This document shows, one piece after another, positions 2,333 through 6,617 of a stretch of 64,000 nt of DNA (position 1 is the stretch's first letter; each line of letters opens with the position of its first letter). The stretch spans positions 124,001 through 188,000 of the forward strand of contig JBAMDO010000579.1 of the NCBI GenBank assembly GCA_037074765.1, in the 5' to 3' direction. The notes below the pieces were generated by a model. That model did not search any database. It saw nothing but the letters and a program-made list of their open reading frames with translations, and was not told the DNA's origin. The position numbers and the translations under genes were made by a program. The DNA is from Mansonella perstans. Lineage: Eukaryota; Nematoda; Chromadorea; Rhabditida; Onchocercidae.

Positions 2333-2337
2333 TTGCT
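2333..2337 (+). repeat. Target-site duplication, left copy
   Basis: TTGCT lies immediately before the LTR start TGTCGCGG and is repeated immediately after the other end of the element (6613-6617). Flanks further out do not match. A length of five bases is usual for BEL/Pao-type integration. Confidence 0.8.
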
Positions 2338-2745
2338 TGTCGCGGACAATCATTTCGCGAAACCGCCAATGAACCGATAATTCAAATTGTAGATAAACGT
2401 TAATGACATTATGAAGCATTCAATTAATTCCTATGACTTTGTTGTGGTCTAAAGCTACATTCTTTTATATACATGTAAATCCTATTCTGTTACCGTATCG
2501 CTTCAAAAATGCCGCTGTTGTAAATCTTCTATTTTCCACCATATTGACCTTATGATCCATCTATTAAGCCATTATTTCCTCCTCTTCTACTACTATATAT
2601 ATTGTCAATCCTCCAACTGAGGATTCATTTGTTTCTTTATTTATTTACTCACTTATGTCCTTATCCAATTTTTTCCTTCTACATTAAATATTTACGTCCG
2701 CATTTGTTTTTAATTACGTTCGCGTTTGTTAATATTTTTAATAAA

Positions 2746-2767
2746 GGTTTAATTACCTATGTTTGAG
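2746..2767 (+). other. SL1-like sequence in left LTR, unit 1
   Basis: Matches the 22-nt nematode SL1 leader at 20 of 22 positions; the differences are at leader positions 13 and 15. It is preceded by AATAAA and followed by GTGCTC. The bases after it are not the SL RNA donor and intron, so this is not an SL RNA gene. Confidence 0.75.
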
Positions 2768-2884
2768 GTGCTCACACAACTCAACTCAACGCAGCTTAAC
2801 TGAACAACAATCAACCAACCAACCAATCAATCAATCAACCAACCAACCAACCAACCAACCAATCAACCTAATCAACTGTACTCA

Positions 2885-2918
2885 ACCCAAGTTTGAGATT
2901 TAATTACTCAAGTTTGAG
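2885..2918 (+). other. Tandem partial and full SL1-like sequence in left LTR, unit 2
   Basis: A 13-nt SL1 3' part (ACCCAAGTTTGAG, 2885-2897) runs straight into a near-complete SL1 (2897-2918, 20 of 22 matches), sharing one G. GTGCTC follows, as in unit 1. Confidence 0.75.
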
Positions 2919-3058
2919 GTGCTCCTGCAACTCAGTTCAACCACACACGCTCAATTCAACACAGCAATCCCTGGTGTAAACGTTGGAGAGTATTGGCTAA
3001 CCATCGACCTCTCACAAGAAGTTCACGACAGAATTTTGGTGCCTGAGGTGAGGTAACG

Positions 3059-4628
3059 ATGTCAAGCAACATTATAGCCAGTATCCAACCAACAAAAACC
3101 AGGTTAGTTCTTCTTCTTCAAGAAATAAATTCCCTGGAGCAAGTATATCGGGATCCAAATGCGCCACTGGAACAACAGGGAAACGTCTATACCACGAGGA
3201 GAAAGGTTCTCGCGGATAAAATCGATAGAATACAATAATGTGTTGATTCACTTGAAAAGGTAAACGACAAGTGGTTCAATTACATTCAAACAATCACCGC
3301 AACGAAAAGAAGGGAAGAAGAAAAAATTTATGAAACAATCGGAGGGTGAACACGGATTATTCTGAATAATGCATGAGGGAAAGAAGCGCTAATAACGCTA
3401 GCAAGGGACAAGGAGGAAACCGAGCAAAAATTGGAACAGCTATTAAAGGGAAAGAGTAAGGAACAGGAGAAATTAATTCCTCCTTCAAACCTTACTGTCA
3501 ATCTTCCTCAATTATCCTTATCTACCTTCAATGGTGACCCAAGACAATGGACAATTTTGGAGCAGCTTCGATGCAGCAATCCATTCACCACCAATTCCGG
3601 AAATTCAAAAACTAAATTATTTGCATTTGTGTTTAAAGGTAATGCCTTACAAGCCGTATCAGGATGCGATATAGCTCCAGAAAATTATGGAGTAATCAGG
3701 CAACTACTCAAAGAAAAATATGGCGATCCCTCGACAATATCGACAATACACTACAACGAACTCCAATCTATCAAAAGAAGTGGAAGGGATTGGATTACCA
3801 TCATCGAGAATATCGAACGGGTGTTACGCCAACTAGAAGCTTTGGGAGAAAGCCTGGAGCACTCAAGTGTTGCAGTGATGGTAGAAAGTAAGTTACCATT
3901 ATTGATTTTCAATAAGGTGTATGATCAAAAGAGAATAGATACCCCTTGATCAATTGCAAAACTCAGAAACTTTCTATCAGATATGGTCAATAGAGCTCAA
4001 CAAGCCAGGAATTGTCAACATTCTCCCACATATGCTGATACGAAACTCACTATCAACAAGTTGGAGCAAAAATAAAAATACAATTCCGGAGGAATTTCAG
4101 CATTAGCAACGATACGTAACAATCAGAAACTCCCACCATTCACAATTCAAAGCAATCACAACTCGCTACAACCTACGATAAGAAAAAAGACTATGCGTTT
4201 TCTGCACTCGGGATCATTGCGATAGTGATTACGACGTCTACCCAACCGCTAATATTAGAACGCATCGCCTCAAGATACTAAAGAAATGTTCGATCTGCTT
4301 CAAAGACAGTCGCAACGGAGAAAAATGTAAAGTGAAAAAACAATGCTTTTACTGCAAAGCCTCTCACAACAGTGCTTTGTGCGATAAAAGAAGTACAACT
4401 TCGTCAAACAGCTTGGTCCATTCCAGAGACAAGGATGAACACGAAAATCCTAGAAATTCCAACAAAAAGGATCCTGCAGCTTCCTTTCATAATTCAACCT
4501 ACACCACACAAACAAATGCAACAAAGGAAACTTTACTCTTATGCAAAGAAATAAAGGTATTTAACCCAACTCAACCTCAACGACAACGACAACAACAGTG
4601 CACGACAACGACAACGACAATGATATGA
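3059..4628 (+). pseudogene. BEL/Pao gag pseudogene
   Basis: Starts at ATG 3059, just inside the LTR. It codes in order for a short N-terminal region, a Glu/Lys-rich coiled segment, the gag core typical of Pao elements (LPQLSLSTFNGDPRQW near 3505-3550, continuing to about 3950), and two retroviral-type zinc knuckles (one with CVFCTRDHC near 4200, one with CFYCKASHNSALC at about 4344-4382). It is broken by in-frame stops in the first 300 bp, a TGA at about 3947, further stops and at least one frame change before the knuckles. It ends in a low-complexity CAACGA-rich run. No protease, reverse transcriptase or integrase follows. It cannot make a working protein. Confidence 0.85.
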
Positions 4629-4641
4629 AGGTGTACTCGTT

Positions 4642-4663
4642 TGTTTAATCACCCAAGTTTGAG
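4642..4663 (+). other. SL1 spliced leader at the 5' end of the captured gene
   Basis: Matches SL1 at 20 of 22 positions and lies 16 nt before the ATG (4680) of the SPATA20-like pseudogene. It falls exactly where a trans-spliced leader would sit on a nematode mRNA. The following bases (GTCTACC) are not the GTGCTC that follows the LTR copies, so this is a separate SL1 copy tied to the gene. Confidence 0.82.
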
Positions 4664-4679
4664 GTCTACCATACATCTT

Positions 4680-5966
4680 ATGGAGAAAAATCATCTCGGC
4701 AATGAAAAATCATTACATCTACTCCAGCATTCCTATAGCCCTATTCACTGGTACCCTTAGGGTCAAGAGGCTTTCGATAAGGCTAAAACAACAAATCATT
4801 TAATACTTTTATCAATTGGCTATTCGACGTGTCACTGGTGCCGCGCAGTAAGTCATGAATCATTTGAAAATGAAGTTGTTAGAGTTCTAAACAATAGATA
4901 TGTGAACATAAAAGTAGATCGTGAAGAACGTCCTGATGTTGATAGGGTTTACGCGGCCTATGTATAGAAAATATCAGGTGTAAGGGGTTGACCACTGAAC
5001 GTCTTTTTGACGTCTGATTTGAAAACGATTATGGCGGTACATTTGTTTCATCTCATAATGAGGATATTCGACATGGTTTCGTGACATTACTCAACATTAT
5101 TGCAGATCAGTGGTTCAGCGATGATAAAACAACAGCAGAGATTGCGGAATCATTTCTTAGTTCGTTGAAATGTTCAGTAGAACCGAAACGGGACGTGTTT
5201 TTACTTCGTTCATTTGAAGAAATCGAATGGAAGTGTTATAATGATTTGAGAAGTGCATTTAATAAGCCATTTGAAGAATTCGGTTGTGCACCCAAATTTG
5301 TCAAGTATGCATATCTTGATTTTCTGCTTTGTTTCTATTATATTTATGCAAATAGCAAAGCTGGTAAAACGGCATTAAAAATTGTTGGTGAAAAACTTAT
5401 GGCATTCGATCGCGCAGGAATTCATAATCACATCGGCAAGGGTTTTCACCATTCTTCGGTAGACTCGGATTGGCACGCGCGTCATTTTGAAAAGATGCTA
5501 TATGACCAAGCTCAGTTATTGGCATTGTATGCAGTTTATCGTGCAATTACTGATGAATTCACTGATGTTATTGAGGATATTGCAGATTAAATTAACAGTA
5601 ATCTTACACACGCATATAGCGGTTTCTATAATGCTGAAGATACTCTTCGGTAAAGAAACGCGAAGGAGCATATTATACTTGGAGGAAAAAGAAATCGATG
5701 AAATACTTAGCAATAAGCCAATTAACGGCATTGAAGGGCTTACTTATGCCAAAGTTTTCAAAATGTATTATAACATTAAACCTAGCAGAAATGTCGCGCA
5801 CGATGATGATGCACATGGCGTTGAAATCACAAAATATATTAATTATGGAAGATTCGCACGATGTTTGTGCAAAAAAATGTGAGCTTAGTGCGGATAAATT
5901 ACGAGATGTGATCAACGAAGCAAAAATCTCACTTCGAGAGATACAGAAAAAAAGACCAAGACCTCA
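4680..5966 (+). pseudogene. SPATA20-like (DUF255 thioredoxin-domain) processed pseudogene, 3'-truncated
   Basis: A retrocopy of a gene for a SPATA20/YyaL-type protein, a family with an N-terminal thioredoxin-like DUF255 domain and a glycosidase-like helical region. Matches run in order: [22 protein letters not shown] (the CxxC motif), [62 protein letters not shown] and KKRPRPH. It is intronless over 1.3 kb. It is broken by TAG 4758-4760 and TGA 4989-4991, both at places where the family has Trp, and by TAG 4965-4967 and TAA 5588-5590. Frame shifts lie near 5035, 5650 and 5850. It ends abruptly at the reversed LTR leader, so the C-terminal half is missing. The intact parent gene is not in this window. 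Confidence 0.88.
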
Positions 5967-6096
5967 CTTCGGGCACCAAGATTCTGTCGTGAACTTCTTG
6001 TGAGAGTTCGATGGTTAGCCAATATTCTCCAACGTTTACACCAGGGATTGTTGTGTTGAATTGAGTGTGTGTGGTTGAATTGAGTTGCGGGAGCAC

Positions 6097-6130
6097 CTCA
6101 AACTTGGGTAACTAAACCTCAAACTTGGGT
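6097..6130 (-). other. Tandem SL1-like sequences in right LTR, unit 2
   Basis: On the - strand, a near-perfect SL1 (6097-6118, 21 of 22) is preceded directly by a 13-nt SL1 3' part (6118-6130). This is the same tandem arrangement as in the left LTR at 2885-2918. Confidence 0.78.
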
Positions 6131-6179
6131 GGTTGGTTGGTGTTCAGTTGAGCTGCGTTGAATTGAGTTGTGTGAGCAC

Positions 6180-6201
6180 CTCAAACTTGGGTAATTAAAT
6201 T
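6180..6201 (-). other. SL1-like sequence in right LTR, unit 1
   Basis: On the - strand it matches SL1 at 20 of 22 positions; only the first two bases differ, so the core TTTAATTACCCAAGTTTGAG is perfect. It is followed by GTGCTCACAC, as in the left LTR. Confidence 0.8.
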
Positions 6202-6612
6202 TTTATTAAAAGTATTAACAAACGCGAACGCAATTAAAAGCATTGACAAACGCGGACGTAAATATTTAATGTAGAAGGAAAAAATTGGATAAGGACATAA
6301 GTGAGTAAATAAATAAAGAAATAAATGAATCCTCAGTTGGAGGATTGACAATATATATAGTAGTAGAAGAGGAGGAAATAATGGCTTAATAGATGGATCA
6401 TAAGGTCAATATGGTGGAAAATAGATTTGCAACAGCGGCATTTTTGAAGCGATGCGGTAACAGAATAGGATTTACATGTATACAAAAGAATGTAACTTTA
6501 GACCACAACAAAGACATAGAAATTAATTGAATGCTTCATAATGTCATTAACGTTTATCTACAATTTGAATTATCGGTTCGTTGGCGGTTTCGCGATATGA
6601 TCGTTCGCGACA

Positions 6613-6617
6613 TTGCT
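6613..6617 (+). repeat. Target-site duplication, right copy
   Basis: TTGCT directly follows the terminal TTCGCGACA of the reversed LTR. It is identical to the five bases before the left LTR. Confidence 0.8.

Follow-up and report, generated by a model that had tools for sequence, protein, structure and literature searches.

An insertion with inverted long terminal repeats and a spliced host gene copy in Mansonella perstans, probably an aberrant reverse transcription product of a BEL/Pao element

The window analyzed here is a stretch of 64,000 nucleotides from the nematode Mansonella perstans (C538:124001-188000), in which a retroelement at 2338-6612 carries a host gene copy between two long terminal repeats (LTRs) in opposite orientation. 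Labels such as C535 or C274 denote contigs of the same 75.7-Mb assembly of 539 contigs, and labels such as L036 or L039 denote loci extracted from it. The left LTR (2338-3030, U3-R-U5, TGTCGCG...CACGACA) lies on the plus strand and the right LTR (5985-6612) on the minus strand, and both outer termini are U3 ends, with TTGCT directly before TGTCGCG on the left and directly after CGCGACA on the right. TTGCT is a 5-bp target site duplication, exact on both flanks by flank comparison (2333-2337 and 6613-6617), whereas for a random pair of 5-mers from the window the rate of identity is 0.002. An initial annotation of this DNA had claimed the opposite orientation, the shared outer terminus and the matching duplication around the whole element. 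All three were borne out, and the inverted-LTR structure is confirmed as real.

Each LTR is followed inward by a 6-nt spacer and an 18-nt primer-binding site (PBS), located at 3031-3036 and 3037-3054 on the plus strand in the left arm, and at 5979-5984 and 5961-5978 on the minus strand in the right arm. The homology between the arms extends beyond the LTR through the spacer and the PBS and ends exactly there, at 3054 on the left and 5961 on the right. An alignment of the LTR plus PBS of both arms has 34 mismatches in 646 bases (5.3%; 29 transitions and 5 transversions) and 3 gap openings. Inverted repeats are a known assembly hazard, and a fold-back read or a false join was therefore considered as a source of the structure. 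However, the arms are diverged here and, to 5.0%, in a second insertion on C535, the flanks are unrelated, the duplications match, and related cases lie on separate contigs (C535, C274, and C143), so that the probability of an assembly artefact is close to negligible. A normal direct-LTR insertion that was later partly inverted, or two insertions fused by a deletion, would be in line with the broken and rearranged copies of the family that are present (e.g., C142 and C39). A fusion, however, predicts no matching duplication, and neither event predicts an inner edge at the exact end of the 18-nt PBS, while both features are seen. C535 repeats the duplication, and we regard such a history as very unlikely. 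The initial annotation had also taken the duplication to speak against a later inversion, and its rejection of an inversion is supported.

Inside the left arm, a gag leader and a broken gag occupy 3055-4587 on the plus strand, with 88% identity to a direct-LTR copy on C183. DUF1759 was the only Pfam match of this gag piece, CCHC-like cysteines were recognized by eye, and no pol was seen in the window copy, where gag reaches 4587. A direct-LTR relative on C131 gave Pfam matches to DUF1759, DUF1758, Peptidase_A17 (the Pao peptidase, 2.4e-45), RVT_1, Integrase_H2C2 (zinc binding), and DUF5641, with rve scoring below its cut-off. Because this relative holds the Pao peptidase, RVT_1 and integrase domains, the element family is BEL/Pao. 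In addition to these domains in the C131 relative, the tRNA PBS after the 5' LTR and the 5-bp duplication are those of BEL/Pao elements. The ordinary copies on C183 and C131 have LTR, PBS and gag family in common with the window copy, but their LTRs are direct (differing at 42/575 positions in C183 and 3/484 in C131), whereas the window copy has inverted LTRs, a host gene inside, and no pol found. Matching 5-bp duplications were seen in 3 of the 8 ordinary copies with flanks printed (C183 TCTTC, C533 AAAGG, C53 GTATG). The flanks of the other 5 did not match, and at least one of these, C205, consists of a 5' LTR followed by gag, for which no match is expected. C205 also has, between the LTR and gag (L038 7095-7135), 41 bp of gag leader sequence inverted in place.

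The cargo, at 4664-5960 on the plus strand, is an intron-less copy of a host gene on C106. It consists of 9 exon blocks, differs from the C106 exons at 92/1280 aligned positions (nine blocks summed, with overlaps of at most 18 nt), and is interrupted by stops. The host gene encodes a Thioredox_DsbH/DUF255 domain (Pfam), and we take it to be SPATA20-like. With such a copy of a multi-exon gene inside an LTR element, the window insertion has a defining feature of an LTR-mediated retrocopy. At its right end the cargo meets the inverted arm, where host CAAAACCTTATG and insert CAAGACCTCACTT share ACCT (5961-5964). These four nucleotides are the very 3' end of the plus-strand strong-stop DNA strand, and ACCT occurs 14 times among 6000 positions of the C106 host locus. 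The initial annotation had placed the internal junctions at about 4640 and 5966. The inner edge of the right arm lies instead at 5961, and at the left junction a spliced leader (SL) exon (4642-4663) precedes the cargo.

The primer is tRNA-Met(CAU), to whose 3' 18 nt, including CCA, the PBS is complementary at 17/18 positions on each arm. Two tRNA-Met genes, on C67 and C416, were found by pattern search and confirmed with ARAGORN; CCA is not encoded. In HIV-1, plus-strand strong-stop DNA halts at 1-methyladenosine 58 (m1A58) of the tRNA after 18 nt, and minor overrun products enter the tRNA, according to a 2026 review (PMC13191261). Because the two arms cease to match exactly after 18 nt of PBS, where an m1A58 stop would fall, the right arm looks, by its sequence, like a complete plus-strand strong-stop DNA. 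Asymmetric HIV-1 LTRs that arise through strong-stop switching between genomes have also been proposed (PMC9278108).

A comparable joint was found on C274 (L039 3181-4644). Its left arm stops at 18 nt of PBS (15/18 to the tRNA), and the base after the PBS, A, is compatible with both the leader and the host. The cargo is a copy of a gene on C531 from which a GT-AG intron of about 1 kb has been removed. The overlap at the joint is ACCTCA, 6 nt as compared with 4 nt in the window, and is, as there, where the strong-stop strand has its 3' end; ACCTCA starts at 3 of 3595 positions of the C531 locus. C274 is a copy with different cargo, for which the initial annotation had proposed a search; its right arm is truncated and leaves no flank pair for a comparison of duplications. 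In both the window and C274 the cargo is antisense, reading on from the strong-stop strand, and therefore fits priming by strong-stop DNA on mRNA.

The left joint of the cargo points to the RNA from which it was copied. Positions 4642-4663 are SL1 (20/22 to GGTTTAATTACCCAAGTTTGAG), joined exactly to the host acceptor TTTTAG/GTCTACC ahead of the first ATG exon. The 54 nt upstream of the SL exon (4588-4641, plus strand) gave no alignment to gag and resemble the sequence 5' of SL RNA genes. In a pattern search allowing up to 3 mismatches, 4618-4643 had a sole genome match besides the window, C128:121238-121263 (1 mismatch), downstream of which follow an SL-like exon, GTAATTG and GATTTTGGAACG. An SL unit on C518 has a flank similar to 4588-4641. 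C518 holds a tandem array of SL1 RNA genes, for which all 50 candidates scored, out of 29150, were above the family cut-off, as compared with none in the 14 control genomes. Outside this array, C128:121240-121400 is a dispersed variant SL RNA-like gene.

Because the SL gene flank is present upstream of the SL exon, a mature SL-capped mRNA is unfit as the template. The template was probably a trans-spliced chimeric RNA, transcribed from an LTR-gag copy upstream of an SL gene, with the SL exon spliced to the host pre-mRNA. A related arrangement is known from Echinococcus, where a transcript started in an LTR is likewise spliced to an acceptor that usually receives the spliced leader; that splicing occurs in cis, whereas the worm case would be in trans, via the SL exon, and followed by reverse transcription (PMC4558846). 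Alternatively, reverse transcriptase may have switched among separate templates (element RNA, an SL-containing RNA, host mRNA, and strong-stop DNA) without any trans-spliced chimera. Switching at microsimilarities is a described route of LTR-mediated retroposition (PMC5408686), and the joint between gag and the SL flank lies inside a shared CAACGACAAC repeat, which makes its exact position uncertain. Moreover, Cer1 of C. elegans has a spliced 2.4-kb mRNA with and without SL1 but an 8-kb full-length RNA that is not trans-spliced (PMC3315495). However, the joint between the SL exon and the host exon is exactly a splice joint, and the upstream SL flank is absent from mature SL-capped mRNA. Multi-template switching is a possible but less probable route. 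It departs from the explanation preferred below only at the step of the trans-spliced chimeric RNA, and the odds given to the two overlap.

The spliced leader sequence also occurs within the LTRs themselves. The window LTR at 2338-3030 contains SL1-like copies at 2746 and 2897 (20/22 each), the first directly behind AATAAA in the stretch 2740-2768. In LTRs of the BEL group from six loci (L034, L037, L039, L042, L043, and L048), a perfect SL1 (22/22) follows right after AATAAA, with GATAAA in its place in one arm of L039. The R region of BEL group LTRs may make use of the spliced leader or mimic it, and this could aid strand transfer on SL1-bearing RNAs.

Further insertions show strong-stop joints of another kind. 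On C535 (L036 3331-4565), an LTR on the plus strand and its PBS are followed by 38 nt complementary to the body of tRNA-Met and then by an LTR on the minus strand, with AATTC on both flanks. Its arms differ at 28/565 positions. This is a further inverted-LTR copy with its own 5-bp duplication, for which the initial annotation had proposed a search. The PBS and tRNA body together match the tRNA at 50/56 positions and end after A21 (conventional tRNA numbering, assigned by us), passing G26 with a mismatch and stopping before U20a. A search with the C535 PBS-tRNA joint gave five matches, namely itself, the two tRNA genes, C175, and C143 at 22 kb. The minus strand of C143 at 22 kb reads U5, PBS, tRNA body, a short filler, and then, in inverted orientation, 22 nt of that U5 end (101 nt read); it is a further palindrome centre, with a different U5. 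C175:112511-112735 (L063, L065) holds a U5-like end, PBS, and tRNA body (44/50 to the tRNA); no LTR was seen in the 137 nt beyond the overrun, and the partner sequence was not recognized there. With Rfam at the gathering threshold, there was no match in 5 loci, including L036 with its tRNA piece.

All three tRNA overruns (C535, C143, and C175) are altered at A58, by T to A in two cases and by a 2-nt gap over A58 and G57 in one. The overruns end just before G26 in C143 and C175 and before U20a in C535, and we presume m2,2G26 and a modified position 20a in tRNA-Met. The A58 pattern is suggestive of a modification footprint but is not proof of one. In C535, C143, and C274 the shorter arm ends 2 nt into the PBS, from which we infer that it ended as if the tRNA had been removed bar two bases.

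Two inverted insertions have a PBS joint and were read at both ends, and both show matching 5-bp flanks (TTGCT in the window, AATTC on C535). Among the 40 scored of 54 U3-end candidates, which give no unbiased rate, 4 came from the window and C535 and 2 from C39; C274 contributed one U3 end and C142 three, the latter inside a larger inverted duplication. The inverted insertions look like repeated independent accidents rather than a propagating family, because the centres or the cargo differ between the cases seen. The possible repeated family of the initial annotation is better read as recurrence (C535, C274, and C143) than as propagation.

Taken together, the insertion is probably an aberrant BEL/Pao reverse transcription product, integrated with two U3 ends, in a nematode with SL1 trans-splicing. 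In this mechanism, an LTR-started transcript with gag and the exon of an SL RNA gene would have been trans-spliced onto the SPATA20-like pre-mRNA and packaged. Plus-strand strong-stop DNA from another genomic RNA would then have failed in second strand transfer, not finding the PBS complement at the minus-strand end, and its 3' end (AGGT-3') may have paired with ACCU in the host part of the chimeric RNA. From there it would have primed antisense synthesis through the cargo, SL exon, gag, PBS, U5 and R, with U3 added by ordinary first strand transfer. Plus-strand synthesis primed at the polypurine tract (PPT) would have run to the end of the strong-stop-primed strand, leaving PPT-defined U3 at both ends, and integrase would have inserted both U3 ends into the target with its normal 5-bp stagger. 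For C535 and C143 (22 kb), strong-stop DNA may instead have extended into the modified tRNA and then been linked to another strong-stop DNA, which would produce an LTR palindrome. The initial annotation had proposed a template switch in reverse transcription and a complementary DNA (cDNA) with two identical termini accepted by integrase. The latter is supported as the kind of cause. Of the former, an origin in reverse transcription stands, but the decisive step looks more like a failed second strand transfer, and an RNA splice is the simplest reading of the joint of gag and cargo.

Host microhomology end-joining might instead have fused the inner ends of two incomplete cDNAs, each of which had one good U3 end, before integration. 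The short overlaps of 4 and 6 nt and the short fillers in C274 and C143 suit such a fusion, which likewise yields two U3 ends and a duplication. However, the strong-stop 3' end is unresected and complete to its final base both in the window and in C274, the cargo has the orientation predicted by RNA priming in both cases (a 1 in 4 chance), and the tRNA body copies show that RNA was still being copied. We therefore consider end-joining unlikely.

Several observations weigh against priming and extension by strong-stop DNA as set out above. The duplication match rests on two insertions (n=2, the window and C535), and on C39 an inverted pair of U3 ends occurs without one. The arms of the window have diverged to an extent at which old mutations blur the joints, and end-joining of two cDNAs at microhomologies would fit the 4- and 6-nt overlaps as well. 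As to the tRNA copies, C535 has 4 of its 6 mismatches at positions other than A58 and G26, C175 differs at 6 of 50 positions, one of them A58, and C143 shows one further mismatch plus one inserted base; the tRNA modifications of this species are themselves presumed. An LTR-gag-SL donor locus was not found in the assembly among the matches listed. Finally, the Cer1 data (PMC3315495) do not favor trans-splicing of genomic RNA in general.

Other candidates were set aside. C39:283524-284810 has an LTR on the plus strand and an inverted U3 on the minus strand 1.3 kb apart, but its outer 5-mers, AAGAT and ATAGC, are unequal, and it was not counted; its middle, directly after the LTR, is 85% identical to an internal part of the C183 element. 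C142 was not counted because the inverted repeat that contains its three U3 ends, in both orientations, extends about 1 kb beyond the LTR and is a segmental duplication. Nor were C505 (L042 3266-3934), an LTR palindrome around a U5-PBS-like centre with both outer ends truncated, and a gag palindrome on C143 at 3.2-5.1 kb (L045 3559-4567) with its twin on C521 (L046), truncated on the left side. This gag palindrome reads gag 1-268, then gag 65-1 inverted, PBS, and an inverted LTR. As to other element types, DIRS elements are not known to have a target duplication, and a DIRS or tyrosine recombinase element was ruled out by the integrase domains in the relative and the 5-bp duplications; no tyrosine recombinase was among the Pfam matches of the pieces searched. 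A DNA transposon with terminal inverted repeats was rejected because the terminal repeats are LTRs with a PBS and the cargo is a spliced mRNA; transposases were equally absent from those Pfam matches. Autointegration was rejected because it gives circles and not linear ends with a duplication outside.

The primary study of LTR-mediated retroposition is reportedly that of Tan et al. in 2016. This process shares with the window insertion an intron-less copy of a host mRNA within LTRs and microsimilarity at the joints, but the available portions of the reports describe switching between element RNA and mRNA with LTRs flanking the copy, and no inverted LTRs or strong-stop priming (PMC5408686, PMC8232201). 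The HIV-1 over-extension products resemble the worm cases in the m1A58 stop after 18 nt and the tRNA overrun; they are reverse transcription intermediates, whereas the worm ones are insertions fixed in chromosomes (PMC13191261). DIRS-1 of Dictyostelium also has inverted LTRs around genes, but it has a tyrosine recombinase and circular intermediates, in contrast to the integrase domains and 5-bp duplications of the worm family; this paper was the one found in the open-access literature on inverted LTRs with an LTR retrotransposon (PMC5633606). Among the open-access matches listed, with their texts available in part, no description of integrated inverted-LTR strong-stop products was recognized, and an earlier description is possible. 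LTR-mediated gene capture and strong-stop over-extension are already known, and the integrated inverted-LTR form, the strong-stop edges, and the tRNA copies would be new.

More generally, we would give an even chance to the proposal that plus-strand strong-stop DNA repeatedly acts as an illegitimate primer and dimerization partner in BEL/Pao particles. The resulting two-U3 cDNAs would be integration-competent, take up host mRNAs, and deposit modified tRNA copies in chromosomes, with SL trans-splicing feeding element-host chimeric RNAs into the process. If this is true, the insertions would be fixed snapshots of second strand transfer, which is otherwise short-lived, and the integrase of an LTR element would accept two U3 ends in vivo. 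There would also be a distinct route for the capture of host genes by LTR elements, and the insertions may hold fossil footprints of tRNA modification.

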